A DNA stretch of 64,000 bases, taken from the IMG/VR virus record IMGVR_UViG_3300033149_002311, positions 1 through 64,000 of that record. One strand, written 5' to 3'. Origin of the DNA: a virus. A model generated the notes under the pieces. The model was not told the origin of the DNA. It was given only the letters and a program-made list of their open reading frames with translations, and ran no database searches. The position numbers were made by a program, and so were the translations under genes. This document shows, one piece after another, positions 2,161 to 40,501 of this stretch (within the stretch, counting starts at the first letter, position 1; every line of letters starts with the position of its first letter).

Positions 2161-2428
2161 AATTCACTTTGCAGTCGAAGGGCGTAATGGTTATTGGGCC
2201 ATCGACGAATACCAGAACCCAAATGGCGACAAATATAGTGGCTGTATTCGGCATGTCGAATCCTTTGAAATACAAAAACAAGCTAATTCAGTTTGTAGCT
2301 ATTTGAATTATCTAGCTGACCAGATAAACAAAGCTAACAGATTCCTAAATCATGCAGAAAAAGGGATGCCACAGGATTGGTTGCTTGTTAGCGACATCAA
2401 ACAATTCTTAACCAGATATAGGGGATAA
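2153..2428 (+). CDS. Hypothetical protein, 91 aa
   Basis: Not recognised; small and soluble with a Tyr/Trp-rich N-terminus and a helical C-terminus. The ATG at 2153 overlaps the previous stop by 8 nt and is preferred to a TTG two codons earlier. It shares a C-terminal pattern (a D-W-L motif followed by an I-x-x-F-L helix) with the next gene product, so the two may be distant relatives. Confidence 0.7.
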   Translation: MNKIHFAVEGRNGYWAIDEYQNPNGDKYSGCIRHVESFEIQKQANSVCSYLNYLADQINKANRFLNHAEKGMPQDWLLVSDIKQFLTRYRG

Positions 2429-2432
2429 ACAA

Positions 2433-2693
2433 ATGCCAATAATCAAATGTATGGCCGATGATTGCCGGTGGAATAAAGATAATATTTGTGGTGCAGCAAT
2501 TGCCGAACTTATCTTCCGTGGGGGTGAGAATCCTGAATGCATATCCTTTGATAGCACACAACCGATGCCAAACGAAGCTATTACCCTTCTACAAGAGGCA
2601 CAAGCCACTTTACCAGATCAATGGCTTGCTAAACCTGAAGCAATTAAGGATTTAGTTAACAGAATTGATATCTTCCTGTCTAACCATAAATAG
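2433..2693 (+). CDS. Cys-rich small protein, DUF1540-like N-terminus, 86 aa
   Basis: The first 20 residues have a C-x4-C-x-W-N-x4-C pattern that resembles the DUF1540 metal-binding motif. The rest is a helical acidic tail. It starts 4 nt after the preceding gene. Function unknown; zinc binding is inferred from cysteines only. Confidence 0.7.
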   Translation: MPIIKCMADDCRWNKDNICGAAIAELIFRGGENPECISFDSTQPMPNEAITLLQEAQATLPDQWLAKPEAIKDLVNRIDIFLSNHK

Positions 2694-2703
2694 AGGTTTG
2701 CCA

Positions 2704-2925
2704 ATGGCCCCCGGATTTAATCCTTTACCAGTATTTATCCTATTTTTTATAATTATCACACTTTATATGGTCCCGTCAATAATAGCTTATGTATTAAAGC
2801 ATAAACATCGCAGCAATATATCGATAATTAACCTCATGCTTGGATGGACAATAATCGGGTGGTTTGCCTGTTTAATATATACCCTAGCATGCCTCTGGAA
2901 GGCTGATCTGTGCGACGAGATTTAG
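2704..2925 (+). CDS. imm: Superinfection immunity protein (Imm family), 73 aa
   Basis: A small membrane protein with two hydrophobic segments (about residues 8-28 and 44-66). The signature is NLMLGWTIIGWFACLIYTLA, typical of the superinfection-immunity family whose founding member is T4 Imm. That family blocks entry of DNA from related phages at the inner membrane. The motif also occurs in unrelated bacterial proteins of this family, so the exclusion role is inferred from the phage setting. I chose the ATG at 2704 after AGAGG because it gives the usual family length; an upstream ATG would overlap the previous gene. Confidence 0.85.
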   Translation: MAPGFNPLPVFILFFIIITLYMVPSIIAYVLKHKHRSNISIINLMLGWTIIGWFACLIYTLACLWKADLCDEI

Positions 2926-2962
2926 TAAAGAGGAGCCCCTCCCCGGCCCTCAGGTGGGTGGG

Positions 2963-3030
2963 ATAGCTATATATGTGCCGGGGTATATCGCCGAGTGGCA
3001 AGGAGATACATCCCCGTGCGACGGAGACAT
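2963..3030 (+). repeat. Dispersed 68 nt repeat, copy A
   Basis: Aligns without gaps to 56056-56123 with 54 of 68 positions identical. The core TCCCCGTGCGACGGAGA is exact and contains a CCGT-GCG-ACGG hairpin. Both copies lie in gaps between genes. Function unknown. Confidence 0.75.
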
Positions 3031-3231
3031 ACCGGTGATATCGATCGATAGGGTGGGTGGTGACCAGAAATACACTAAGCAAATGATAAGACCCCCATAC
3101 CTGTTACTAAATCTCGCATGCGTGAGCATTATACGCTACGCGCACCAGAGGCTGTCCGTAGTCACAAACTCCCTTAGAATCCAAGACATTTTCGAGACCT
3201 TAGCCATTTTGAATATCTGTTCCATGAAGTG

Positions 3232-3247
3232 TGTTTCACGTGAATCA
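3232..3247. promoter_or_regulatory. parS-like palindrome
   Basis: TGTTTCACGTGAATCA matches the bacterial ParB-binding parS consensus TGTTTCACGTGAAACA at 15 of 16 positions. No ParA or ParB gene is visible in this window. It could be a host-ParB site, or a site for a phage protein encoded elsewhere. Confidence 0.55.
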
Positions 3248-3510
3248 TTTGATATTAGATTGGATCTAAAATTTTCGGTTTAAATTAACATCTCAAAATT
3301 GCTTCGGGATTATTTTTAAAAATGGGTACAGCAGGGTCAATATCCGGGAATATACCCTGTCTGTCCATAATTATTTTGCGGACTGACTACCGTTTCCGGC
3401 TCTTAAAAAAAGAGATGACCCCCATTGGTTATTTTTAGGTCATATGGTCACCCTCGAACCCACTACGGACATATTCCTTGTCGTCCTCCGATTCTCAGGT
3501 AAAGATGGGA

Positions 3511-3539
3511 TTGACCTTACTGGCCGGACATGATATACT
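3511..3539 (+). promoter_or_regulatory. Sigma70-like promoter before the primase gene
   Basis: TTGACC, a 17 nt spacer, then TATACT with an extended TGA before it. It lies about 80 nt upstream of the primase start. The leader between them contains two TGTTTCACG half-sites, which could allow control of this transcript. Confidence 0.85.
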
Positions 3540-3569
3540 GCCTCGGCATACTCTCTGAGGTATCCGGAG

Positions 3570-3591
3570 TGTTTCACGAGTATGTTTCACG
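3570..3591 (+). promoter_or_regulatory. Tandem TGTTTCACG half-sites
   Basis: Two direct copies of TGTTTCACG, 13 nt apart (3570-3578 and 3583-3591), lie in the leader of the primase transcript. They match the left arm of the parS-like palindrome at 3232, and suggest binding by the same protein as a transcription control site. Confidence 0.4.
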
Positions 3592-3619
3592 GGATTAATG
3601 ACATAGAGAAGAGGGCTTT

Positions 3620-5137
3620 ATGAAATATTTTATGGATCTTTTTGTTGCCAATACTGAAGTATTTGGGCAGTGGAATCCGAGTAATAAAGAGATGTTCGCG
3701 GTGAAGTCTAAACACCACGAAGAGCAGTTTAAGAATCATTTTAATGGGATCATGGGATTAGGTTTAGCACCTGTTATGAGTAACAATCATTGTTATTTCG
3801 GGGCTATTGATATTGACGCGCATGGTGATTTACCGGATATTGATATTATTGCTTTAGAGGCAAAGATCAGGGTCGCTGAATTACCGCTTGTGGCTTGCCA
3901 AAGTAAGTCTGGGGGCGCTCATTGTTACGTCTTTTTCGAGGAGCCTGTGCCAGCAGTTATGGTCCAGTTTTTATTGAGAACGTGGTGCAGACTTTTAGAT
4001 TATCCGGAGACCACGGAGATTTTTCCGGTACAAACAGTACTTGAGGAAGGTCAACAAGCTGGGTGGATAAATTTACCATACTTTAACAAAAATCAGCGGG
4101 TTGCAGCTAATGAAGGAAAATTACTTTCATATGAAGAATTTATCGAACTAGCACAGGCTAGAAGAATTAACCCAGATAATATTAGCGATGAAATGCTAAA
4201 ATCGTTTAAAGGAATCCCACCATGCCTACAATCGATGCTAACAAATGGTGTGGAGTCGGGTTATCGCAACCACGCCCTTTACAATTTTACAGTTTATCTA
4301 AAGCGGGCCTATCCCGGCCAGCATCGAGCAAAAGCTCGTAACATCAATGAACTTATTTTCGAACAACCACTATCAAGGCGGGAGGCTGAACGTACAATAG
4401 CATCGGCTTCCAAGCGGGATTATCTTTATAAATGCAAGGAAGAGCCCTGTAAAAGTTTATGTAATCCGGAGGAATGTATTGCTAGAGAATTTGGTATTGA
4501 TCCCGATGAAGATTTTAACAATGGGGAAGAACACCATTTTTCGAATCTCCGGAAGTATATTACTGACGAAACGCATGAATTTGTTGTCTGGGAACTTCAA
4601 TATGACGAACGAACAATAAAAATAAATAATGATGTCTTATCTGATTTCATGATGTTAAGGAAGGAAATCCTAAAACAGTTAGATGTAATGCTCCCCCCCA
4701 TGAAGGTAATGGAATGGACCAATATTCTAAATGATTTATTACAAACTCATACTAAGGAATTTGTGCCAGAAACGGCAACCATGGCTGGGCTGGTAAGAAC
4801 TCGGATGACGGAATTTATTCAAAAGGCCGATCTAGATAGTGATGGGACAAATAAAGATGACCGGGCATTGATTAATAGAGGTGTGCCGGTAGTTCAAGAA
4901 ATGGACGGGGTTCGTTCAGTGTGTTTCCGGGCACAAGACTTTGTTAGTTACCTAAAGAAAACTAGGGGTGAGGATATTAGGGGGTCGAATCTCTATCTTG
5001 CTTTAAGGGCAGCTGGTTTAAAGTCAAGGAGAATTCGTCTTGATGAAACTGGAGCTAAGACTAGTATATGGTATTTACCTATTGATGAGATGGTCCCAAT
5101 GGAATTGGGTGAGGATAATTTTCAATCAGAATATTAG
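3620..5137 (+). CDS. DNA primase, archaeo-eukaryotic type (TOTE-like), 505 aa
   Basis: Synthesises primers for phage DNA replication. The catalytic AEP core is in the first 170 residues: metal-binding AIDIDAHG (about 62-69), the S-x-H type motif KSGGAHCYVFF (about 96-106) and the downstream WINLPYFN. A primase C-terminal-like segment follows (CLQSMLTNGVESGYRNHALY, about 203-222), then a Cys cluster (YKCKEEPCKSLCNPEEC) that probably binds zinc. The sequence resembles the primases of TOTE conflict systems and of many large phages. No helicase motif is present, so the helicase must be a separate protein. Its last codons (DNFQSEY) recur at the end of the small ORF at 5337-5534. Confidence 0.85.
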   Translation: MKYFMDLFVANTEVFGQWNPSNKEMFAVKSKHHEEQFKNHFNGIMGLGLAPVMSNNHCYFGAIDIDAHGDLPDIDIIALEAKIRVAELPLVACQSKSGGAHCYVFFEEPVPAVMVQFLLRTWCRLLDYPETTEIFPVQTVLEEGQQAGWINLPYFNKNQRVAANEGKLLSYEEFIELAQARRINPDNISDEMLKSFKGIPPCLQSMLTNGVESGYRNHALYNFTVYLKRAYPGQHRAKARNINELIFEQPLSRREAERTIASASKRDYLYKCKEEPCKSLCNPEECIAREFGIDPDEDFNNGEEHHFSNLRKYITDETHEFVVWELQYDERTIKINNDVLSDFMMLRKEILKQLDVMLPPMKVMEWTNILNDLLQTHTKEFVPETATMAGLVRTRMTEFIQKADLDSDGTNKDDRALINRGVPVVQEMDGVRSVCFRAQDFVSYLKKTRGEDIRGSNLYLALRAAGLKSRRIRLDETGAKTSIWYLPIDEMVPMELGEDNFQSEY

Positions 5138-5270: not shown

Positions 5271-5336
5271 GATATGGCTGGTAATTATGATCAGGGGCGA
5301 TATACCAAAAGATAATGTACAAGAAAGGATGAGCAA

Positions 5337-5534
5337 ATGAAAGAGTTATCAACAGACCGCAATGTGTTCGCTGATCATAACAATTACAGGCGCAAATATT
5401 TAAACTCGGGCGTGATGCGGAGAAAGATTTATTTTATAATTAAAATGAACAAATTTAGGGTCCCATCACCCAGTGAAATGGAAGACATACCCCAAACAAG
5501 GAACAGCAATGATAATTTTCAATCAGAATATTAG
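5337..5534 (+). CDS. Small hypothetical protein ending like the primase, 65 aa
   Basis: A basic N-terminal part is followed by the same last residues as the primase (DNFQSEY), encoded by the exact 26 nt repeat. AAGGATGAGC precedes the ATG. It may be a remnant created by the duplication rather than a functional gene. Confidence 0.45.
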   Translation: MKELSTDRNVFADHNNYRRKYLNSGVMRRKIYFIIKMNKFRVPSPSEMEDIPQTRNSNDNFQSEY

Positions 5535-5742
5535 AAGAATGACTTGTGAGTTTTTAGGTAGACGGCTAAACTCAAATACTTTGATGTGGGAGTATTCAGA
5601 TGGTTCTGGTAGGTTGATTACTGAGGAAAAAAGAATACGGGTACTAGAGAGTATACATAGTCTGTCTGAGTTTAAGATTAGTGATAAAGTATATAAAGGT
5701 AATAACGGACTTAATGTTTTAGCAGAGCTACATATTAGCTAA
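5509..5742 (+). CDS. Hypothetical protein, 77 aa
   Basis: Not recognised. The start at 5509 is chosen because AAGGA sits 6 nt upstream; the alternative ATG at 5539 would remove ten residues encoded by the repeat. The protein is a mix of strands and helix with no membrane segment. Confidence 0.6.
   Translation: MIIFNQNIRRMTCEFLGRRLNSNTLMWEYSDGSGRLITEEKRIRVLESIHSLSEFKISDKVYKGNNGLNVLAELHIS
5511..5536 (+). repeat. 26 nt direct repeat, copy 2
   Basis: Exact copy of 5114-5139. It ends one small ORF and forms the 5' end of the gene starting at 5509. Confidence 0.8.
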
Positions 5743-5792
5743 GTATGAATATTGAAGAAGATGCGCCTATGAATTACCGAGGAGGTATACTC

Positions 5793-5996
5793 ATGTTCAA
5801 TATTTTCAAAAAGAAAACGACTGAAGAAAAAATAATTAAGCTTAAGTGTGAGATCGCAGCGATGGAAAAGGAGATAGAAGTTCTTTGGAAAATTGAAACT
5901 AAAGGCGGTTATTTATTTGGTAAGCGTGATGAAATCATTTCCGTGGAAAAGAAATTGGCTTACAAGAAAAAGAAAATAGAATTATTACAATGTTAA
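5793..5996 (+). CDS. Lys-rich coiled-coil protein, 67 aa
   Basis: Two charged helices (about residues 10-35 and 45-65) with heptad-like hydrophobics suggest a small helical hairpin or coiled coil. ATG 5793 follows a strong GAGGAGG site; the frame is open back to 5745. Its stop overlaps the next gene start. Function unknown. Confidence 0.65.
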   Translation: MFNIFKKKTTEEKIIKLKCEIAAMEKEIEVLWKIETKGGYLFGKRDEIISVEKKLAYKKKKIELLQC

Positions 5997-6202
5997 GTAA
6001 AAGTGGAAAGGTTGAATGGAGTTGCCCTGAATGTGGATCAATTAAGATACAAGGGCCATTTATAATACTTGGGCAGCAATCTGGAGGATGTGGCCACTGC
6101 AATACTTGGTGGCCTTGGCGCTCAAGAATTAAAAAAAGTGTAAAGAAATTGCACAATGAAATTAGAAAGAGAGTGTTTTGTAACAGTTTGAAGGAGAAAT
6201 AG
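5990..6202 (+). CDS. Zinc-ribbon protein, 70 aa
   Basis: Two cysteine pairs, CPEC (about residues 12-15) and CGHC (about 34-37), form a zinc ribbon, followed by a Lys/Arg-rich helix. Such small ribbon proteins are frequent in large phages and their roles are mostly unknown. The start overlaps the preceding stop by 7 nt. Confidence 0.7.
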   Translation: MLSKSGKVEWSCPECGSIKIQGPFIILGQQSGGCGHCNTWWPWRSRIKKSVKKLHNEIRKRVFCNSLKEK

Positions 6203-6204
6203 TT

Positions 6205-6537
6205 ATGGCGGTAATGAATCAAAATACGAGTTATGAGAATATTTGTTCTTGCGGCAAACATTTTAAAGGTGATGCATTCCCAGACACCGAATTGATTCCT
6301 GATGAAGCCGGGTCAATTACTGGAAAGGATGGAACTAAAGGTCGGATAGAATGGGTGCCAGCGACAGTTAAAGATGGGTGTAAGGATTGCATATCACGAC
6401 TAGAAAAAGAAGTTGAGGAAAAATACTACGTAGAATTAGATGCTTTGCCTCTCGAAGAAAGAGTACGAAGAATCGAAAAGTGGATAAGGAATTTCAAGCA
6501 TCAAGAACAATGGTATGTGCCGCCACCTAGATATTGA
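6205..6537 (+). CDS. Hypothetical protein with two CxC/CxxC pairs, 110 aa
   Basis: Cysteines at CSCGKHF and GCKDC could form one zinc site. The C-terminal half is a charged helix ending in a Trp/Pro tail. GAAGGAGAAATAG precedes the ATG. Not recognised. Confidence 0.7.
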   Translation: MAVMNQNTSYENICSCGKHFKGDAFPDTELIPDEAGSITGKDGTKGRIEWVPATVKDGCKDCISRLEKEVEEKYYVELDALPLEERVRRIEKWIRNFKHQEQWYVPPPRY

Positions 6538-6595
6538 GAAATAATATGAGTGCAGATACATTATGGAATTGGGATGTAAAGTGGGTAAATTTTAA

Positions 6596-6799
6596 ATGAA
6601 TGATGCAGGTTTAATATTTATAGGATTCCCATTTCTTGTGGTTTTTTTAAGTTCAATTATGTGGTTAAGCCATAAATTAGTTGGGATCTTACCCTTGAAT
6701 TATATTCAGCAAACCAAGTGGGAAGATAGAATATTTTGTTTATTATTCATTATTTTTTGGATCGGCTTCGCATTTTTAGCAAAACTAATAGAGGGTTGA
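6596..6799 (+). CDS. Small membrane protein, 67 aa
   Basis: Two transmembrane segments (about residues 4-30 and 45-65) joined by a short polar loop. A 17-codon ORF (6546-6599) overlaps its start and could act as a leader peptide. Function unknown; inner-membrane location is inferred from hydrophobicity. Confidence 0.65.
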   Translation: MNDAGLIFIGFPFLVVFLSSIMWLSHKLVGILPLNYIQQTKWEDRIFCLLFIIFWIGFAFLAKLIEG

Positions 6800-6803
6800 T
6801 AAG

Positions 6804-7061
6804 ATGCCACAAATCGGGATGGAAGTAAATGAGAGTGTATGTTGTGATGATTGGCAAACAGGGATAGATGAGATAAATAGTTTTATTACATTGCAATCTA
6901 TACGATCAAGCCAACCAAATATCTACACCGGAAGGCCATTTTCATACTGCCCGTGGTGTGGGATTAGGAAAGCACCGCCAATGGTGGTGGATAAACATAA
7001 AATTATTGAACGCTGGGAATGTAATGGTTGTTATAGGGGGGTGGTAAGTATCCTTGTATAG
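6804..7061 (+). CDS. Zinc-binding protein, N-terminal part, probably frameshifted, 85 aa
   Basis: Cys motifs VCCDDW, YCPWCG and CNGC look like a treble-clef or ribbon. The frame stops shortly after a run of six G (7035-7040). The -1 frame continues without a stop to 7180 with protein-like composition. The original protein was probably about 125 aa; an indel or -1 slippage at the G-run would join the pieces. Confidence 0.6.
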   Translation: MPQIGMEVNESVCCDDWQTGIDEINSFITLQSIRSSQPNIYTGRPFSYCPWCGIRKAPPMVVDKHKIIERWECNGCYRGVVSILV

Positions 7062-7245: not shown

Positions 7246-7464
7246 ATGAAATTATCCAGTGGTTTTGATTCACCAAAAGAATTAATAGGTTATTGTTCTA
7301 TTCATTGTGAGACACCGAGAGCACTGTTTAATGGCAGACAAATTAATGATATGATCATGCTTGCGGGATATCCAGATGACTTCCCAAGAGAGGTTGACCC
7401 CAACCTATGGATTTCTGCAAAGCAGCCGATGCAAGATTTGTGCGACTTAGCACTAAAAAGATGA
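7246..7464 (+). CDS. Hypothetical protein, 72 aa
   Basis: First gene after the promoter at 7191-7219, with a strong GAGGGAGGGACAG leader. A small soluble protein with two conserved-looking Cys/His pairs (YCSIHCE) near residue 20. Function unknown. Confidence 0.7.
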   Translation: MKLSSGFDSPKELIGYCSIHCETPRALFNGRQINDMIMLAGYPDDFPREVDPNLWISAKQPMQDLCDLALKR

Positions 7465-7604
7465 AGGGTAAAATGAAAGCCGTATTAACGGTATACCACT
7501 TTATGTACCCCCAACATTTCTATTATTTGATGGGTAAAGGCATGGGTGTACGCTGGACTCCTTCGTGGTTTATTTTAAGTCCAGTTTTACGTAAAAATTG
7601 GGGA

Positions 7605-7982
7605 ATGCTTATTTTATTATTTTGCTTAGCCGGTTGCAGCGATAAAGTTATACTTAGCTATGAATATACGGACGTCACCCCGATGGGTATTAAATATCGT
7701 GTAGATGCCGGGGCTGCTTCATTAGACGCCGATCGGTTGGATTATTACTTCGCGTCTGTGATGAATTGTGTTGGTCGATCATATGATCCAAATAATTTAT
7801 TAGTTATTTCCACAGTCAGGAATATTGATCCAGAACTAAGGGAACGTGATGTGGTTGTTATCAATGCAATTAATGCACGGGCCTTAACATATGCCATGTT
7901 GACGTATGAATTTGTATATGTAATAACAGGTAATGAATCCCTACGCTGTAGTGAAGTACCATTTGGTTATGCGAGGTATTAA
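7605..7982 (+). CDS. Predicted lipoprotein, 125 aa
   Basis: Begins MLILLFCLAGCSDK: a short hydrophobic h-region ending in a lipobox (LAGC), so the mature protein should be lipidated at Cys11 and tethered to a membrane. The mature part is a soluble alpha/beta domain with one further Cys pair. The frame is open upstream to ATGs at 7461 and 7473, but that would put about 45 residues before the signal peptide; the exact start is uncertain. Possible roles include surface exclusion, but nothing in the sequence shows one. Confidence 0.6.
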   Translation: MLILLFCLAGCSDKVILSYEYTDVTPMGIKYRVDAGAASLDADRLDYYFASVMNCVGRSYDPNNLLVISTVRNIDPELRERDVVVINAINARALTYAMLTYEFVYVITGNESLRCSEVPFGYARY

Positions 7983-7983
7983 C

Positions 7984-8106
7984 ATGAAAAGAGATGATCC
8001 AAGATTAGCAGATTATCTGGAGATCATGGAAGCGGAAGCACATCATGATCACGAAATTATTGAAGATGAGAATGGTTACAGTCGGATTTATCCTTATAAC
8101 GCCTGA
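7984..8106 (+). CDS. Small acidic protein, 40 aa
   Basis: Asp-, Glu- and His-rich (MEAEAHHDHEIIEDENG). It starts 1 nt after the upstream stop, and its stop lies inside the first attC-like site. It is either the last phage gene before the cassette array or the first cassette gene. Confidence 0.55.
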   Translation: MKRDDPRLADYLEIMEAEAHHDHEIIEDENGYSRIYPYNA

Positions 8107-8168
8107 ATTAACGCGCTGGCGTAGCCAGTCGCAGCGAGGAACGAGCAATGTTTAATGATTTGTTATGT
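8094..8168 (+). other. attC site 1
   Basis: TTATAAC box at 8094-8100 and GTTATGT box at 8162-8168. It shares ATAACG-CTGAA-T-AA at the 5' end and GATTTGTTA at the 3' end with attC 2, and a CTGGC-GTA-GCCAG hairpin. Confidence 0.7.
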
Positions 8169-8420
8169 GTAAGGCACAATATACATCTTGTATGTATAGG
8201 TGGCTGTAGTGCACATAGAGATAATTGGTATTGCCCTGAGTGTGACAAAGAGAACGATTGTTTTAGGCACAACACGGAATATAAAAAGACCGAGTTTGAA
8301 CATGAGATAAATTGCAAAAAGGGTTTGTGGGGCGTAACCGCACCAACTAAAAAAGAAGCTGAGCGAGAAGCAAGGCATTATTTTCGGCAATATTTTAGTG
8401 ATGGTGAATACAACACATAA
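8148..8420 (+). CDS. Cassette gene: Cys-rich protein, 90 aa
   Basis: Zinc-ribbon-like cysteines (CIGGCSAHRDNWYCPECDKEND) and a C-terminal amphipathic helix rich in Glu, Ala and Arg. The only ATG lies inside the preceding attC site, upstream of the predicted recombination point, so its start would depend on the neighbouring cassette. The stop overlaps attC 2. Function unknown. Confidence 0.6.
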   Translation: MFNDLLCVRHNIHLVCIGGCSAHRDNWYCPECDKENDCFRHNTEYKKTEFEHEINCKKGLWGVTAPTKKEAEREARHYFRQYFSDGEYNT

Positions 8421-8472
8421 CGGCTGAACTCAACCGCGAGCGCAGCGAGTCGCTTGGAGTGATTTGTTAGGT
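8415..8472 (+). other. attC site 2
   Basis: 58 bp from ACATAAC to GTTAGGT, with internal inverted repeats ACTC...GAGT and GCGA...TCGC. Overlaps the stop of the preceding gene. Confidence 0.8.
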
Positions 8473-8484
8473 ACGGAGGAGACA

Positions 8485-8784
8485 ATGAAAGAAGAAGAAT
8501 TAAGAGAGTGTGCTGTATGTGCTAATTGCGAAAAGAAAATAGGGCATACAGGTATGCCAATATTTCATAGAGTGAGCGTGCAAACATACGGCCTTGATGG
8601 CCACGCTATGCAACGACAAACAGGGATGGAAATGATAATGGGTGGCCATGTTGGTTTGGCTCAAGTTATGGGTGCAAACGAAGATTTAGCAACTGAGATT
8701 GGCGAGAAAGAAGAATTTACATTATGCGCTGATTGTTGGGTGAAAGAATTACCAATAGCTTCACTGGTTGAGTCTAGTACCTAA
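8485..8784 (+). CDS. Cassette gene: Cys-containing protein, 99 aa
   Basis: CAVCANC near the N-terminus and CADC near the C-terminus could bracket one zinc site, with a Gly/Met-rich middle. ATG 8485 follows GGAGGAG directly after attC 2. The TAA stop is part of the ACCTAAC box of attC 3, the usual compact cassette arrangement. Confidence 0.7.
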   Translation: MKEEELRECAVCANCEKKIGHTGMPIFHRVSVQTYGLDGHAMQRQTGMEMIMGGHVGLAQVMGANEDLATEIGEKEEFTLCADCWVKELPIASLVESST

Positions 8785-8852
8785 CGATTAGCTATGCGGC
8801 TGGCGTAAGCCAGTCCGAGCGAGGAACGAACGGCATAAGCGGCTTGTTATAA
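8779..8852 (+). other. attC site 3
   Basis: ACCTAAC to GTTATAA, 74 bp, with a long imperfect palindrome (GCTATGC...GGCATAAGC) and the inner CTGGCGTAAGCCAG hairpin. Its left half is almost identical to partial site 12. Confidence 0.8.
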
Positions 8853-8871
8853 ATCAAACACAGGTGAAGGT

Positions 8872-9057
8872 ATGTCAAAAAATGTGAAATGCAAATGTGG
8901 TATTGAATCGATTTACGTTACTAGCACAGATAAAACTAAGGACGGGAAATATTACTGTATTAGAAAACCGCCAATATCAACTGAGCATGTTGGGCATTTG
9001 ATAACAACAGCTCCGGCAACCGCCTTTGTTGATGAACCGCATAGATGTGCGGATTGA
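8872..9057 (+). CDS. Cassette gene: small protein, 61 aa
   Basis: Begins MSKNVKCKCG, with a Cys pair near the start and one Cys near the end. It has a GGTGAAGGT ribosome site. Stops immediately before attC 4. Not recognised. Confidence 0.65.
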   Translation: MSKNVKCKCGIESIYVTSTDKTKDGKYYCIRKPPISTEHVGHLITTAPATAFVDEPHRCAD

Positions 9058-9058
9058 T

Positions 9059-9116
9059 TTATAACGACCGCGATAAGCTGTGAGCGTAGCGAATCAGCTT
9101 CATTAGCTTGTTATGT
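9059..9116 (+). other. attC site 4
   Basis: 58 bp from TTATAAC to GTTATGT with inner AAGCTG...CAGCTT arms. Confidence 0.8.
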
Positions 9117-9126
9117 GTGGTAATTA

Positions 9127-9261
9127 ATGCAAATGAACGATAAAAATATAGGTGTTTTTGATTGTTGCAAATGCTTAAAGAGGTTTGAAATGGTAGCGGG
9201 ACCGCATGTCAAATGCCCGTTTTGTGAGCACGTTTATATCAAATGGATAAATAAATTATGA
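9127..9261 (+). CDS. Cassette gene: mini zinc-ribbon protein, 44 aa
   Basis: Two pairs, CCKC and CPFC, separated by 14 residues, form a minimal zinc ribbon. It is the first of two overlapping genes in this cassette; its stop overlaps the next ATG as ATGA. Confidence 0.6.
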   Translation: MQMNDKNIGVFDCCKCLKRFEMVAGPHVKCPFCEHVYIKWINKL

Positions 9262-9422
9262 AGAATTACATAAAAACAATTTTAGAGCGCATTGTTAACT
9301 ACCGCACGGGTCCAGTAGCCTGGTGGGGATTCTGGAATCCTTTAAGTGGTATAGCTGGAGGATTATTTGGCGGGACGTTGATATGGATTGCTATTTACTT
9401 ATACTTAGCTTTTTACACATAA
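9258..9422 (+). CDS. Cassette gene: small membrane protein, 54 aa
   Basis: One or two hydrophobic segments (about residues 20-52, with a GIAGGLFGGTLIWIAIYLYL stretch). The stop coincides with a TAAC box. Probably an inner-membrane peptide; function unknown. Confidence 0.6.
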   Translation: MKNYIKTILERIVNYRTGPVAWWGFWNPLSGIAGGLFGGTLIWIAIYLYLAFYT

Positions 9423-9462
9423 CGTTAAAGCTGTGCTGCCTGCGGATTGAAACCACTGGAGA
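9417..9462 (+). other. Partial attC site 5
   Basis: ACATAAC at 9417-9423 overlaps the preceding stop, but no GTTRRRY partner is found before the next gene. Probably a site truncated by deletion that fused two cassettes. Confidence 0.5.
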
Positions 9463-9467
9463 ATATT

Positions 9468-9779
9468 ATGGTAGACGAAGCCACTGAACAAGAATCAAAC
9501 GCCGAGGTAGCAGGTCAGAACCAGCGTGTTGTTATGCGCCTTATTACCGAGACAGATCAACTCGAAGTCGGTAGAAAATATTGGGTAAAGGAAAAACACT
9601 TTGAGACAAGCATTGATAATATTAGGGTTTGTGAAGATCACCCCGAAGGTGGTAAGTATTTTGGACCGGGTAATACATGGGCTTCCGAAAGTAATCCACA
9701 GGCATTTAGGCGTTGGCATATCTACGGGCCAATTCCTGAGCTAACAAAGCCTGACTGGGACGAAATACTGGGCACATAA
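9468..9779 (+). CDS. Cassette gene with a homologue at 15438-16118, 103 aa
   Basis: After a 25-residue polar leader it contains a domain (LEVGRKYWV ... GGKYFGPGNTWA ... RRWHIYGPIP) that matches residues of the phage protein at 15438-16118 (LEVGHLYWI ... GNKYFGNKVWA ... ERWDIVGPIP) in the same order and spacing. ATG 9468 follows GGAGA. Function unknown. The shared domain shows that cassette and phage gene pools overlap. Confidence 0.75.
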   Translation: MVDEATEQESNAEVAGQNQRVVMRLITETDQLEVGRKYWVKEKHFETSIDNIRVCEDHPEGGKYFGPGNTWASESNPQAFRRWHIYGPIPELTKPDWDEILGT

Positions 9780-9843
9780 CATATTGAAATAAGCGGCACG
9801 AGCCGCAACGCGGCGATGGTCGCGCTTGATTGATTGGTTATGT
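9774..9843 (+). other. attC site 6
   Basis: 70 bp from ACATAAC to GTTATGT. The inner part, with AAGCGGCACGAGCCGC, is nearly identical to attC 8. Confidence 0.85.
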
Positions 9844-9862
9844 TGCGACTATGGAGGAAGCA

Positions 9863-10144
9863 ATGGAAACAAAAACAGTGTTAGTTTTTACTGCCTGCAA
9901 ATGTTTGAAATGCGGGACAGTGAACGCATACCACCGTTGCGGGTGTTCGTGTTGGCCAAGCATCGGATTATTGCCACCCGATATAGAAAATTATCGAATG
10001 CAATATGGTTTTTTTATGGAAGGCAAAAAAATGCCTGACAACTTTATTTCATTCGATGAGGTTAAGGAACTTCTTACTAATGATAGGCAGGTATGGGGGC
10101 CGGATGGATTGCCTATTACATTGGCGGATTTTGATGACGCCTAA
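9863..10144 (+). CDS. Cassette gene: Cys-rich protein, 93 aa
   Basis: CKCLKCG and HRCGCSC near the N-terminus suggest a zinc ribbon. The C-terminal half is acidic and helical. ATG 9863 follows GGAGGAAG; upstream in-frame ATGs lie in or against attC 6. The stop is part of a CTAAC box. Confidence 0.65.
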   Translation: METKTVLVFTACKCLKCGTVNAYHRCGCSCWPSIGLLPPDIENYRMQYGFFMEGKKMPDNFISFDEVKELLTNDRQVWGPDGLPITLADFDDA

Positions 10145-10159
10145 CGATTAATTGAGGGG
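10139..10159 (+). other. Partial attC site 7
   Basis: GCCTAAC followed by GATTAATTGAGGGG and the next ribosome site; no palindrome and no right-hand box. Similar sequence (TTAACGATTAATTGGGGG) ends partial site 12, so the same deletion type may have occurred twice. Confidence 0.45.
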
Positions 10160-10165
10160 CGCACG

Positions 10166-10435
10166 ATGGGCGAAAAACAAACTTTATGTACACGCGCAAA
10201 TATGAAACCGTGGGAAAAAATTGTTGAAACTGACGCAGAAAGTGCGTCCCCTCCAATGGCTGGTTATGCCTGGACAGGGTTGCCAATGGCCACATGCCCG
10301 CATTGTAATGTGGAATCACAGATTGATGATTACTACGAATTAAGTGCTGGGAGTACCTTCACATGCCCCGCATGCGAAAAGGAAATAGAAATTCTAGAGA
10401 GGCACGAAGTAGTAGAAATTAAAGTGAAGGCATAA
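10166..10435 (+). CDS. Cassette gene: zinc-ribbon protein, 89 aa
   Basis: CPHC (about residues 44-47) and CPAC (about 68-71) form a classical zinc ribbon, followed by a charged C-terminal strand/helix. GAGGGG precedes the ATG. Its stop overlaps attC 8. Confidence 0.7.
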   Translation: MGEKQTLCTRANMKPWEKIVETDAESASPPMAGYAWTGLPMATCPHCNVESQIDDYYELSAGSTFTCPACEKEIEILERHEVVEIKVKA

Positions 10436-10499
10436 CGGATGAAAATAAGCGGCACGAGCCGCATCGCGGCGAGGGTCGCGCTTGATTGATTGGTTAGGT
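10430..10499 (+). other. attC site 8
   Basis: 70 bp from GCATAAC to GTTAGGT, nearly identical in its centre to attC 6. Confidence 0.85.
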
Positions 10500-10520
10500 G
10501 CCTGCTTGGAGATAATTGTA

Positions 10521-10691
10521 ATGATAATAACATCGACTGAATTTGATAAAGCCATTGAAAAAGAATTAGACCGACTGACAAAAGAGAGCATAAATGCTTA
10601 CACGGAAACCGAAGAATTTTATGAGCGGCTTGAATTAGAAACACGAAAAGAACTTGCGGCCATAAATTCATTTTTCCTCTGGCGCTGGTGA
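10521..10691 (+). CDS. Cassette gene, N-terminal part, helical protein, 56 aa
   Basis: A charged helical protein whose end (SFFLWRW) looks out of frame. Just before it lies a TTTTT run (10671-10675), and the +1 frame continues open to 10875. Together the pieces would make a protein of about 118 aa, which would fit one gene between attC 8 and attC 9. Confidence 0.5.
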   Translation: MIITSTEFDKAIEKELDRLTKESINAYTETEEFYERLELETRKELAAINSFFLWRW

Positions 10692-10728
10692 CGACAAACC
10701 TCTGCAATTATATGTCCATTCACCCACG

Positions 10729-10875
10729 ATGGATGACGGGTGCAGAATTAACATCGAAACAATACTCGAAGATGATATAAATGAAATCAAAGAAGATGAT
10801 AACGAGCAACTTCGTTACATATTAAATCGACTCGAACTTATGGTTCAGAAGCTCAAAGCTCAAATAGGCACCTAA
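10729..10875 (+). CDS. Cassette gene, C-terminal part, acidic helical, 48 aa
   Basis: Acidic helix (ETILEDDINEIKEDDNEQL) ending in a coiled-coil-like segment. The ATG at 10729 has no ribosome site and the frame is open upstream to 10666, which supports its being the continuation of the ORF at 10521. The stop lies in the ACCTAAC box of attC 9. Confidence 0.45.
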   Translation: MDDGCRINIETILEDDINEIKEDDNEQLRYILNRLELMVQKLKAQIGT

Positions 10876-10934
10876 CGATTAAGTTAAAGGGTTGCGCCGC
10901 TTTTGCGCAATCCATTTTGAACGCCTTGTTATGT
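10870..10934 (+). other. attC site 9
   Basis: 65 bp from ACCTAAC to GTTATGT with inner TTGCGC...GCGCAA arms. Confidence 0.8.
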
Positions 10935-10958
10935 GCAAGGCAAACGCTGGGGATAGAA

Positions 10959-11204
10959 ATGAGTAAGATAGAAAAAGGCGTAATGATAATGAAAGACGGC
11001 AAGGCATGGGGTGAAACTTATGCAGACGGTCACAGCACTTCATACGGATGGATGGATGCAGAGTCAGCCCCAATTCATGACCCGAAATTTTGCAAGAAGG
11101 TTACAGATGTTACTTATGCGGGAAGTTATCTTATTCCTGAACTTAAAAAAGGAAAGTTAGTAGAAGTTGAGCGCGTGACAACCGTTAAAATTATTGGCAC
11201 ATAA
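10959..11204 (+). CDS. Cassette gene: hypothetical protein, 81 aa
   Basis: Mostly beta, with a conserved-looking GWMDAESAPIHDP segment and a C-terminal ELKKGKLVEVERVTTVKI strand pair. Start chosen at ATG 10959, downstream of attC 9. Not recognised. Confidence 0.65.
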   Translation: MSKIEKGVMIMKDGKAWGETYADGHSTSYGWMDAESAPIHDPKFCKKVTDVTYAGSYLIPELKKGKLVEVERVTTVKIIGT

Positions 11205-11257
11205 CGAAAAAGCTAACCCGCTGGCGTAGCCAGTCGGAATTGAGCGCCTGGTTATAT
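11199..11257 (+). other. attC site 10
   Basis: 59 bp from ACATAAC to GTTATAT with a CTGGCGTAGCCAG hairpin shared with attC 1. Confidence 0.8.
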
Positions 11258-11268
11258 TGCGAGGCAGT

Positions 11269-11484
11269 ATGGAAATAGAAAAACTTGAACTTCCCAAACC
11301 CGAACGAAGGTGGCGTGAACAGCGTTGTGCGAGGATCACGCAATCTACTGGCACGGCCCACTTTGAGGGGAAGAAAAATCAATGCGGGCGCATGGCGCGA
11401 TTTAAACTTGAGGGCATCCCCTTTTGCACGCAACATGCTGGCGAAATGGCGCTGAAACACTTGATTAGTGAGAAAGCAATATAA
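11269..11484 (+). CDS. Cassette gene with homologue at 20814-21059, 71 aa
   Basis: The second half carries a metal-binding-like pattern, C-G-R-M-A-R-F followed by F-C-T-Q-H-A-G, that matches C-Q-N-Y-A-R-Y and F-C-R-K-H-A-G at equal spacing in the phage protein at 20814-21059. Two Cys and one His probably bind zinc. GAGG precedes the ATG. The stop overlaps attC 11. Confidence 0.7.
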   Translation: MEIEKLELPKPERRWREQRCARITQSTGTAHFEGKKNQCGRMARFKLEGIPFCTQHAGEMALKHLISEKAI

Positions 11485-11536
11485 CGACCAAGCTCACCCG
11501 AGAGCGTAGCGAATCGGGTGCAGTGATTGGTTATAT
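11479..11536 (+). other. attC site 11
   Basis: 58 bp from ATATAAC to GTTATAT, with inner CACCCGA...TCGGGTG arms and the GAGCGTAGCGA centre also seen in attC 4. Confidence 0.85.
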
Positions 11537-11549
11537 TTTGGAGATAATT

Positions 11550-11753
11550 ATGGGATTTGATAGTGTTGACGAAGAAAAATTACAGCGTGATCTTGTGATG
11601 ATTAGGGCTGCGTTAACTATACAGGCGTTACAAATGCGTAATGAGATTTTTGCTGGAGGCGTAATGGATAAAGATACTTTTGACCAGGAATACTTGAACG
11701 GTATTGGTGAATACGAGCGCGAACTTGCCGAAAGAGAAGGTATAGAAATATAA
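11550..11753 (+). CDS. Cassette gene: acidic helical protein, 67 aa
   Basis: All-helical with a Met/Gln-rich first helix and a Glu-rich end. GGAGATAATT precedes the ATG. Stop overlaps the last attC-like box. Not recognised. Confidence 0.65.
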   Translation: MGFDSVDEEKLQRDLVMIRAALTIQALQMRNEIFAGGVMDKDTFDQEYLNGIGEYERELAEREGIEI

Positions 11754-11810
11754 CGATTAGCTATGCGGCTGGCGTAAGCCAGTCCGTGCGAAGCACGTAC
11801 TTTAACGATT
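11748..11810 (+). other. Partial attC site 12, right end of the array
   Basis: ATATAAC and the left two thirds of the attC 3 palindrome (GGCTGGCGTAAGCCAGTCCG) are present. The right-hand GTTRRRY box is missing; instead TTAACGATTAATTGGGGG leads into the next gene. Confidence 0.6.
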
Positions 11811-11823
11811 AATTGGGGGACAT

Positions 11824-12072
11824 ATGATGAGTGAAGAAATGGTAGACATTGAACTAAATCTAGGTAAAGTGTGTGCTGATGAAATTAGTAAGATGACTAA
11901 AACGAAGTTAATTAATCGCCTAGTTGTGTCTGTATTACGCGGTAGGGTTCAAGATGAAACGGTAACTGATCTTGAAAGAGAAGTTGAAAATTTACAAGAA
12001 CGATTAAATAAGGCAAGGGATAATATCAAACAAGCCGAGGCCATGGTGATTGCTGCCATGGAACGATGGTGA
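11824..12072 (+). CDS. Coiled-coil protein, 82 aa
   Basis: The C-terminal half is a clear coiled coil (DLEREVENLQERLNKARDNI). TTGGGGGA precedes the double ATG. Its stop overlaps the start of the primase-like gene by 7 nt, which links it to the phage operon rather than to the cassette array. Confidence 0.7.
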   Translation: MMSEEMVDIELNLGKVCADEISKMTKTKLINRLVVSVLRGRVQDETVTDLEREVENLQERLNKARDNIKQAEAMVIAAMERW

Positions 12073-12802: not shown

Positions 12803-12976
12803 ATGATAAAACGCTATATCATAATGACAGTATTTTCAGTCGCAATCCCAGCATGGATTGGTTTTATAATGGATGGTGATTGGCGGTCTGATCACGCTAT
12901 CGGACTGATGATTGGTTGCCTAATATGCACATGGGTGATACAACCTATAACAGATTTATTTAGGGGATCATGGTGA
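12803..12976 (+). CDS. Small membrane protein, 57 aa
   Basis: Two hydrophobic segments (about residues 6-23 and 33-47). AGGAGAGAG precedes the ATG. It overlaps the rtcB start by 7 nt, so it is the first gene of that operon. Function unknown. Confidence 0.65.
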   Translation: MIKRYIIMTVFSVAIPAWIGFIMDGDWRSDHAIGLMIGCLICTWVIQPITDLFRGSW

Positions 12977-14184
12977 AAATCTATGCAGAAGTCCTTGAAG
13001 AAACCGCTTTAGAACAGTTCAATCTGGCTATGGAACAACCATTTGTTCTCAATGGCGCTCTTATGCCTGATGCTCACACAGGTTATTCATTACCGATAGG
13101 TGCCGTAATAGCTACAGATAACATGATTTTACCTTCATGGGTTGGGTATGATATAGGGTGTGGTATGTGTGCCTTAAAGTTAGAAGGTATTGATATTAAT
13201 GGCATAAATGTTCATTTAAAAGAAATCTTCGATGAGATTTACCGGAGGATTCCTGTTGGATTCAATGTTAACGAGACTGAAACTGAATATAGCTCTGCTG
13301 GCCTTACTAATGCTGGGATGGTAATAGCTCAAAGAAAAAAGTATAAACAGGCTTTGGGTTCTTTGGGTGGAGGTAATCATTTTATTGAAATTGGTTATGA
13401 TGAAAATGATGAAATCTGGGTTGTAATTCACTCTGGTAGTCGGGGAGTTGGGCATGGTATCGCTACCCACTACATGACTGTAGCTTCCAGCGACCCTATA
13501 ACTCTTGAAGAAGAATTTGACGCCACACACAAAGACTTACTAAAACATAATCCAGGCCAGTACGAGAGCCATAAGGCCAGATATGTTGAGAGAAAAATGG
13601 GAAAGTTACGCCCAAAAGAAGGACATTATGGATTTAAAGCCGATTCTCAGGAAGGTAGAGATTATATTCAAGACCTTAATTGGGCGCTTGATTATGCCTT
13701 AATGAACCGTAGAACCATGATGGAACGTGTGATTGACTCGATTACTTGTTGTCTTAATTTATCTTGCTATGAGCTAGATTTTACTGTATTGATAAATCGA
13801 AATCACAATCATGCTGTTTACGATACTATGAAAGACTGGTGGGTTCATCGAAAAGGGGCTACACATGCTGAACTAGGTATGATGGGTGTTATCCCCGGAA
13901 ATATGCGGGATGGTAGTTTCATCGTAAGAGGTAAAGGAAATCCCGAATCATTGAATTCAAGCTCCCATGGTGCCGGACGGGTTTTAGGGAGAAAGGAAGC
14001 TAAAAGGGTCTTGAAGTTTGAGGACTTTCAAGACGTGATGGGCGGCGTGACTGCCTTGGTGACAGAAAAGACTCTAGATGAATCGCCGATGGCTTATAAG
14101 GATATTTTTGAGGTAATGAGACTACAGGAAGACTTGGTAGAAACCATCCATCACATCAGGCCAATCATAAACATTAAGGGTTAA
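12970..14184 (+). CDS. rtcB: RtcB-type RNA-splicing/repair ligase, 404 aa
   Basis: Joins RNA 2',3'-cyclic phosphate or 3'-phosphate ends to 5'-OH ends using GTP and Mn2+. Family motifs in order: PDAHTGYSLPIGAV (about residues 33-46), DIGCGMCAL with the metal-binding Cys (about 60-68), GSLGGGNHFIEI (about 131-142), HSGSRGVGHG (about 155-164) and SSSHGAGRVLGRKEA (about 328-342). Length equals cellular RtcB. The window also holds Ro and structured RNAs at 39.8-42.2 kb; in some bacteria rsr (Ro) and rtcB are neighbours, so a shared RNA-repair role is plausible. It could also repair tRNAs cut by host anticodon nucleases. Confidence 0.93.
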   Translation: MVKIYAEVLEETALEQFNLAMEQPFVLNGALMPDAHTGYSLPIGAVIATDNMILPSWVGYDIGCGMCALKLEGIDINGINVHLKEIFDEIYRRIPVGFNVNETETEYSSAGLTNAGMVIAQRKKYKQALGSLGGGNHFIEIGYDENDEIWVVIHSGSRGVGHGIATHYMTVASSDPITLEEEFDATHKDLLKHNPGQYESHKARYVERKMGKLRPKEGHYGFKADSQEGRDYIQDLNWALDYALMNRRTMMERVIDSITCCLNLSCYELDFTVLINRNHNHAVYDTMKDWWVHRKGATHAELGMMGVIPGNMRDGSFIVRGKGNPESLNSSSHGAGRVLGRKEAKRVLKFEDFQDVMGGVTALVTEKTLDESPMAYKDIFEVMRLQEDLVETIHHIRPIINIKG

Positions 14185-39960: not shown

Positions 39961-40120
39961 GGCGTGGTAGCTCAGTTGGTAGAGCAGCTACACTCTTAAT
40001 CAATACTTGTCCCTTAAAATAACTTATTCGGTGTAGTTAGCCAGAGTCTAAAGGACCGGCGAATAAGAGTTTCCACTTTTAATGGGTTGGTCGGAAGTTC
40101 GAATCTTCCCCACGCCGCCA
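39961..40120 (+). tRNA. tRNA gene (Lys-like, TTT) interrupted by an insert of about 84 nt
   Basis: Acceptor GGCGTGG / CCACGCC, discriminator G and encoded CCA; D-arm GCTCAGTTGGTAGAGC; T-arm GGAAG-TTCGAAT-CTTCC. Total 160 nt against 76 for a normal tRNA. The anticodon loop CTTTTAA (40076-40082) with anticodon TTT lies in the 3' part; a similar CACTCTTAAT occurs before the insert, so the insert is flanked by a near-direct repeat. A good anticodon stem (GCCCA / TGGGT) forms if about nt 39989-40072 is removed. Anticodon and exact borders are uncertain. Confidence 0.75.
39989..40072 (+). other. Insert in tRNA 1, candidate mini-intron or ribozyme
   Basis: About 84 nt with three blocks shared with the insert of tRNA 2: TACTTGYCC (40004-40012), GTTAGC (40036-40041) and AAAGGRCCG (40050-40058). 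GTCC pairs with GGAC, and CTTATTCG (40023-40030) with CGAATAAG (40060-40067), in an interleaved order that makes a pseudoknot. CTACAC at 39988-39993 can also pair with GTGTAG at 40031-40036. Confidence 0.6.
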
Positions 40121-40134
40121 TTTTTAAAGAGTAT

Positions 40135-40202
40135 TGCGGGTCGGATGATTGAGCGTTATCACTTTGGATGCTAATCCGCTCAGTCGTTTAAATTAATCCG
40201 CA
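40135..40202 (+). ncRNA. Structured RNA B, Y-RNA-like
   Basis: Outer stem TGCGGGT / ATCCGCA, asymmetric internal loop with CGGAT on the 5' side, and a 9 bp inner stem GATTGAGCG / CGCTCAGTC with a 21 nt loop. The helix - asymmetric bulge - helix layout formed by the two ends is that of Y RNAs bound by Ro. It lies between the two tRNA genes. Confidence 0.5.
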
Positions 40203-40209
40203 TCTTTAT

Positions 40210-40366
40210 GCAGTGTGTAGCTCAGCGGTTAGAGCAAAAGTGTAAAAATTCGTTTTCAAATACTTGCCCACTCAGTTGCGATCAGTCGCATGGTTAGCAA
40301 CAAAGGGGCCGATAGATTACGATAATCGGGAACTTTAGGTCGCTGGTTCGAATCCAGTCACGCTGC
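40210..40366 (+). tRNA. tRNA gene interrupted by a related insert of about 83 nt
   Basis: Acceptor CAGTGTG / CACGCTG, extendable by a G-C pair; D-arm GCTCAGCGGTTAGAGC; anticodon stem AAAGT (40237-40241) / ACTTT (40332-40336); T-arm GCTGG-TTCGAAT-CCAGT. The 3' loop half TCGGGA suggests anticodon CGG (Pro), consistent with the C1-G72 pair, but the 5' loop half is not standard. CCA follows two bases after the stem (CACCA), so the 3' end is atypical. The spacing implies an 83 nt insert in the anticodon loop. Confidence 0.65.
40242..40324 (+). other. Insert in tRNA 2, candidate mini-intron or ribozyme
   Basis: Shares TACTTGCCC (40261-40269), GTTAGC (40293-40298) and AAAGGGGCCG (40302-40311) with the insert of tRNA 1; blocks 1 and 2 are 32 nt apart in both. 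GCCC pairs with GGGC across a TGCGA-TCAG-TCGCA hairpin; a GATTA-CGA-TAATC hairpin ends the insert. Confidence 0.6.
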
Positions 40367-40384
40367 CACCAATTTTTAGTTATA

Positions 40385-40478
40385 TGGACCGGAGTTTAAG
40401 ATCATCATGGACAGCGGCATTGGGGTTTCGTAGCTCCTTCTTTCTTCGGAAAGTAAATTCTTAAACAACACTAGTCCA
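40385..40478 (+). ncRNA. Structured RNA C, Y-RNA-like, directly upstream of ro
   Basis: Ends pair as TGGAC / GTCCA, then an asymmetric loop (CGGA on the 5' side, AACACTA on the 3' side), then GTTTAAGA / TCTTAAAC. Inside are a T-arm-like GGGGT-TTCGTA-GCTCC hairpin and a CTTTC-TTCG-GAAAG tetraloop hairpin. A bulged terminal stem plus tRNA-like arms is the architecture of bacterial Y RNAs. Position next to the Ro gene supports the call; it could instead be the 5' leader of that mRNA. Confidence 0.6.
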
Positions 40479-40501
40479 TTATTTTATTAAGGAGAAGAGA
40501 G

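Follow-up and report, generated by a model that had tools for sequence, protein, structure and literature searches.

Clusters of attC sites lacking an integrase (CALINs) are already known in virulent phages. Seventeen CALINs were found in 10,705 phage genomes, and in a published assay with IntI1, recombination was observed at five of six attC sites from virulent phages (Qi et al. 2023, PMC9892861). We analysed a window of 64,000 nucleotides, which comprises bases 1-64,000 of the 89,264-bp viral record IMGVR_UViG_3300033149_002311, together with the remaining 25 kb of that record. Between 8094 and 11838 the window carries an array of small genes and attC sites, and the sequence supports its classification as a CALIN in a phage genome. 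The sites are clustered, as 12 lie within 3.8 kb, nine of them at E<=4e-4, and neither PF00589 (Phage_integrase) nor PF13495 had a match in the 89,264-bp record, which may be incomplete. Since the record has no tyrosine recombinase match, the array was classified as a CALIN and not as a complete integron.

The window array resembles those of the virulent phages TJE1, P12002L and PH101 (PMC9892861), which also have attC sites without an integrase, small cassettes and mostly one orientation. It is longer (12 sites, compared with three in TJE1) and its attC sites are of a proteobacterial type. Its traceable cassettes are small phage genes, whereas the published phage CALINs carry methyltransferases (PMC9892861). 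With the sedentary chromosomal integrons of Betaproteobacteria and Gammaproteobacteria it shares common attC cores such as CTGGCGTAGCCAGTC, the R boxes, the spacers and the cassette lay-out. However, it has no intI and no recognised attI, it is located in a phage, and two of its cassette proteins (those of ORFs, i.e. open reading frames, 5 and 9) gave no match in 369 genomes taken from the class, which is a weak negative result. A first-pass annotation, made from the sequence, had proposed an integron-type array without an integrase and had called such clusters rare in phages. The remark on rarity was fair, although phage CALINs had already been published.

We searched for attC sites with two covariance models that were trained on bacterial sites only, with zero sequences from the window phage. 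Model R1 was built from an alignment of 12 bacterial-chromosome attC sites with one common core. Model R2 drew on 28 attC sites from the chromosomes of Nitrosomonadales, Comamonas, Methylobacter and others and from a Vibrio anguillarum integron, and its structure (R-box pairs, L-box pairs and extrahelical base) was written in. Over both strands of the record, R2 gave 11 matches at E<=5, all on the + strand and all within 8094-11786; the best of the nine strong ones reached an E value of 1.2e-9. The nine matches of R1 at E<=1 were likewise on the + strand of 8094-11818, with none elsewhere. When the filters were turned off, R2 resolved 11 complete attC sites and one broken site in 8094-11847, gaining the site at 9417-9537 and a fuller match at the broken site that starts at 11748. 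The background in 11 viral loci (177 kb) was three weak matches only, two of them around an RtcB gene that is discussed below. The presence of attC-like sites far above chance is confirmed. R2 matched a single site in PH101 and no site in TJE1; therefore, the attC types of these published CALINs differ from that of the window array. Two other scans were set aside. A crude box-plus-stem scan was unspecific, and the exact 16-base attC core occurred in 17 viral contigs, of which L011 alone has it as an attC, most of the others reading as chance or coding matches.

Scoring with an attC covariance model was one of the checks proposed in the first-pass annotation, and it gave no match outside the array in 89 kb. 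The annotation had counted nine complete and three partial sites of 58-75 bp. The sites are real, but the count has to be revised to 11 complete and one broken. Two of the supposed partial sites are long but complete, one of 121 nt (9417-9537) and one of 131 nt (10139-10269), and the size range holds for the nine other complete sites. The third, from 11748 to about 11800, is truly broken, its right half being replaced by another attC-like left half at 11803.

The R'' and R' boxes, RYYYAAC and GTTRRRY, were as annotated: their AAC/GTT is present in 11 of the 11 complete sites. In an alignment fitted to the model, which biases all pairing and covariation figures in that direction, the R helix was 85.7% paired, and the four L-box pairs of the L helix were 100% formed, with covariation and with the extrahelical base retained. 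The folds agreed with an L''/L' stem next to an unpaired central spacer. Standard pairs occupied 81% of the cells of this fitted alignment, compared with 30-41% when the partners were slid by 1-3 columns, and double-sided changes were observed in 25 cells against 10.2 in shuffles. A bottom-strand fold had also been suggested as a check, and its outcome was divided. The probabilities of an attC fold on that strand (0.014-0.86) matched those of chromosomal controls (0.016-0.93), but folding energy alone did not separate the sites from shuffles. Most array sites were no better in energy than shuffles with fixed R boxes, which fold about equally well, and energy was dropped as proof of attC. Recognition of attC rests on sequence plus structure together, not on energy alone.

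Most of the 15 small ORFs of the array matched no family, and about half of them have CxxC-type pairs. Two could be traced, ORF 5 and ORF 9, and homology indicates that both are phage genes. Over 72 amino acids, ORF 5 shares 43% identity (BLASTP E 3e-14) with part of another gene of the window phage (15438-16118), and the homologous stretch sets in at the cassette joint, from the ATG of the R' box GTTATGC onwards. ORF 9 has a homologue in the Vibrio jumbo phage pVp-JHP1101 (42% identity) and further homologues in three IMG/VR contigs (50-53% identity), in which no attC was found.

All cassettes run in the same direction as the surrounding genes, on the + strand. Eleven are bounded at both edges, the last of them by the broken attC 12, and a leftmost gene precedes them. 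The annotation had given about ten tiny + strand genes, which was correct as to size and strand but not as to number. Its statement that stop codons overlap the left boxes held: of the 12 ORFs that reach a site, 10 stop on the TAA of its R'' box and two stop only a few bases away from this box. Model matches, a covarying L-box stem, compact cassettes in one orientation and the lack of PF00589 and PF13495 matches all agreed with the proposal of an integron-type array without an integrase. At sites 1, 5 and 7, the open frame of the next cassette starts inside the preceding attC. Promoter-like matches across the array region were no commoner than in shuffles.

The leftmost ORF (7984-8106, 40 amino acids) has its TGA stop inside attC 1, and a GTTATGC box at 7966-7972 is a candidate for its left edge. 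A decayed attC at 7921-7972 was also considered for this edge; it scored 6.5 bits with R2, which is the chance level, and we do not claim it. Next comes attC 1 (8094-8168; R2 44.2 bits, E 1.6e-7), which contains the ATG and a likely ribosome-binding site of ORF 1 (8148-8420). This ORF encodes a cysteine-rich protein of 90 amino acids with no family in Pfam or PHROG, and its TAA stop lies in the R'' box of attC 2 (8415-8472; 35.2 bits, E 1.7e-5). ORF 2 (8485-8784, 99 amino acids) has two CxxC motifs and sub-threshold zinc-ribbon matches only. It is followed by attC 3 (8779-8852; 29.2 bits, E 3.9e-4) and ORF 3 (8872-9057, 61 amino acids). The weaker attC 4 (9059-9116) scored 13.5 bits, with an E value of 1.3 over 89 kb and 0.086 over 6 kb, and is in register with the others. 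Cassette 4 (9127-9422) has two ORFs, one of 44 amino acids with two CxxC motifs (9127-9261) and a hydrophobic one of 54 amino acids (9258-9422).

The long attC 5 (9417-9537) scored 13.8 bits (E 0.076 over 6 kb, filters off). Its R''/R' and L''/L' boxes pair, with a fold probability of 0.86, and it contains an upstream extension of ORF 5 (9534-9779), which in its native form probably begins at the ATG of the R' box. Then follow attC 6 (9774-9843; 39.4 bits, E 1.9e-6), ORF 6 (9863-10144, 93 amino acids, CxxC) and the second long site, attC 7 (10139-10269; 29.3 bits, E 3.5e-4). ORF 7 (10166-10435, 89 amino acids) encodes a double zinc ribbon, which matched PHROG_16376 (E 6e-6) and, below threshold, zinc-ribbon models of Pfam; the zinc-ribbon part begins at the ATG at 10286-10288, downstream of attC 7. 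Cassette 8 (10521-10875), to the right of attC 8 (10430-10499; 38.4 bits, E 3.2e-6), has two reading frames, 10521-10691 and 10729-10875. These are apparently parts of a single gene that a frameshift at a T run near 10671 has divided, through either a sequencing error or pseudogene formation.

The right part of the array comprises attC 9 (10870-10934; 47.1 bits, E 3.6e-8), ORF 9 (10959-11204, 81 amino acids), attC 10 (11199-11257; 53.6 bits, E 1.2e-9), ORF 10 (11269-11484, 71 amino acids), attC 11 (11479-11536; 29.4 bits, E 3.4e-4) and ORF 11 (11550-11753, 67 amino acids). At the end stands the broken attC 12 (11748-11838; 12.2-15.3 bits; repeat families D2 and D4). Its left half is 92% identical to attC 3, the second left half at 11803 is like attC 7, and a right half is missing. 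The first ORF to the right (11824-12072, +, 82 amino acids) is predicted to form a coiled coil from weak matches, and may belong to the phage backbone or be a decayed cassette.

The record contains phage virion and replication genes, for a major head protein, tape measure, tail fibre, terminase, DNA polymerase, primase and helicases. The head protein is about 44% identical to those of the Pseudomonas phages RSP and KPP23 and 42-43% identical to those of the Roseobacter RDJL phages. From these genes, we assign the phage to the tailed siphoviruses. It is probably virulent, because no tyrosine recombinase matched in the record; a lysogeny integrase was likewise not found by PF00589, and serine integrases were not searched for. 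A gene for the RNA ligase RtcB lies at 12970-14184 of the window. A gene for a Ro60 protein (TROVE plus vWA; 40502-42079) stands directly downstream of tRNA-like RNAs (40030-40480), which include a tRNA match at 40211-40366 with an insert of about 90 nt in the anticodon loop and a weak YrlA (Y RNA-like) match at 40060-40261 (E 0.25). The Ro60 gene, the tRNA-like and Y-like RNAs and the RtcB gene look like a phage-borne Ro60-Y RNA-RtcB RNA-repair set. A Radical SAM/SPASM protein is encoded at 14978-15922 of L003, among the late-strand genes of the window phage.

A pattern scan of viral contigs revealed further contigs with attC-like sites. Two of them, from two samples (G003 and G004, with loci L048 and L050), are phage contigs that encode a portal protein, a primase and a helicase and contain an array of about eight sites. 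Their cassettes encode a calcineurin-like phosphoesterase (PHROG_547), an Acb2 homologue and a PHROG_17560 protein. The Acb2 homologue lies at 8022-8246 of L048 (IMGVR_UViG_3300005956_000002), between attC sites at 7658-7747 and 8278-8355, and in the same array in L050. It matched PF24729 (E 7e-18) and the solved p26 chains 8h2j and 8ixz (E about 1e-15). From the name of the Pfam family and general knowledge, we take Acb2 to act against CBASS (the cyclic oligonucleotide-based antiphage signalling system). Like the window array, these arrays have no integrase, lie in a phage genome and carry phage-type cassette genes. They differ from it in phage lineage and in cassette genes, and we did not find them published in the literature searched. 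In L048, a phage DNA helicase gene (5310-6934) has its stop codon inside the first attC of the array; thus, either the array entered at the end of this gene or the helicase gene is part of a cassette.

The closest relative found of the window RtcB, 70% identical, is encoded in L063 (IMGVR_UViG_3300033148_002171), a contig with portal and tail genes. This RtcB gene (2404-3809) stands between two attC-like sites (R2 E 0.007 and 0.047 over 39 kb) and therefore seems to be a gene cassette. In another viral contig, L064, a similar RtcB gene has no attC-like site alongside. No tyrosine recombinase was found in the G003, G004, L063 and L064 contigs. A 21-kb 'viral' record, L076 (IMGVR_UViG_3300038335_000048), has attC sites over its whole length and an SNF2/DUF3584 protein, and may be a misclassified bacterial integron.

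We consider it likely that the window array is a CALIN of promoterless cassettes in the rightward block of a virulent phage, that a host IntI most probably moves the cassettes, and that the array forms a swappable accessory-gene locus. Each unit would be a small promoterless gene with its own attC within the rightward gene block. A host IntI would act in trans on the folded bottom strand of attC while the phage DNA is single-stranded, and in this way cassettes would enter, leave or change place. Expression would come from the rightward transcripts of the phage itself, with some start codons supplied by the adjoining attC, and the locus would hold small accessory phage genes that can be exchanged. 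The parts of this model with direct support are the sequence and structure of attC, the orientation, the compactness, the lack of an integrase and the phage kinship of two cassette genes. The action of a host IntI, the expression of the cassettes and a benefit to the phage are what we infer. The recombination of phage attC sites with IntI1 in the published assay (PMC9892861) lends plausibility to the first of these. Among the chromosomes with the same attC core, 11 of 17 have a full IntI.

Several observations weigh against cassette movement by a host IntI. We found no relative with an empty site, no rearranged copy and no named host. In the search for an empty site, the left flank gene (7407-7982) had no relatives in phages or viral contigs, the right flank gene had distant relatives only, without shared surroundings, and the relatives of the primase and RtcB had no further synteny with the window phage. 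The spacing of sites is identical in G003 and G004; therefore, no cassette movement is seen there. The broken right end and the frameshifted cassette are signs of decay. Limited searches of bacterial genomes and plasmids with the cassette proteins and the array DNA gave no match. One attC was also searched in phages and genomes, with nothing useful.

The same signs of decay, together with the identical G003 and G004 arrays and the lack of an integrase, would also be expected if illegitimate recombination had once brought in the whole array as a block from a chromosomal integron of a bacterium, and if the array were now an inert, decaying passenger without a continuing role of a host IntI. We regard this as unlikely. 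The traceable cassette genes are those of phages, not of hosts, and 11 of the 12 sites are still intact. In addition, the sites differ widely from one another (mean column identity 31%), which would not be expected of a block taken from one sedentary array. Somewhat less probable still is that phage recombination enzymes, and not IntI, shuffle cassettes within phages by homologous recombination between similar attC sites. The array does contain near-identical pairs, attC 6 and attC 8 (90% over 69 nt) and attC 3 and attC 12 (92% over 50 nt), which could serve such exchange. However, most pairs of sites are too dissimilar, and the double changes preserve structure, which exchange by homology would not need.

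That the sites are look-alike intergenic hairpins of the phage, such as terminators or processing sites, is very improbable: a few array hairpins were called terminator-like and folding energy is not unusual, but those calls are on the - strand, models of bacterial attC match these sites alone in 89 kb, the R'' and R' boxes, the spacers, the L-box pairs and the extrahelical base all keep register, and the same type of site stands between small cassettes in other phage groups. An assembly chimera of a phage and a bacterial integron is just as hard to credit, because, although the record is metagenomic and GC (guanine plus cytosine) content is 43% in the array and 40% in the rest, the ORF 5 domain also occurs in another gene of the same phage, and arrays lie in unbroken phage context in the independent samples G003 and G004.

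Compared with the published phage CALINs, three features are new: the array is long, its traceable cassettes are related to phage genes, and Acb2 and RtcB occur as cassettes in other phages. In the open-licence literature, we found no paper that links integron cassettes with anti-CBASS genes. Phage CALINs are few and their cassettes are mostly unexplained, and cassettes of traceable phage genes are held by the window phage and at least two other phage groups. We tentatively raise a broader possibility, of which we are less than half convinced, that phages keep a shared pool of small phage genes, including Acb2 for counter-defence and RtcB for RNA repair, as cassettes that are swapped between unrelated phages through host integrases. 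If this were true, integrons would serve the exchange of phage accessory genes and not bacterial adaptation alone. If host integrases do move these cassettes, phages would exchange counter-defence genes by way of integrons, and bacterial integrons would in turn sample phage genes.

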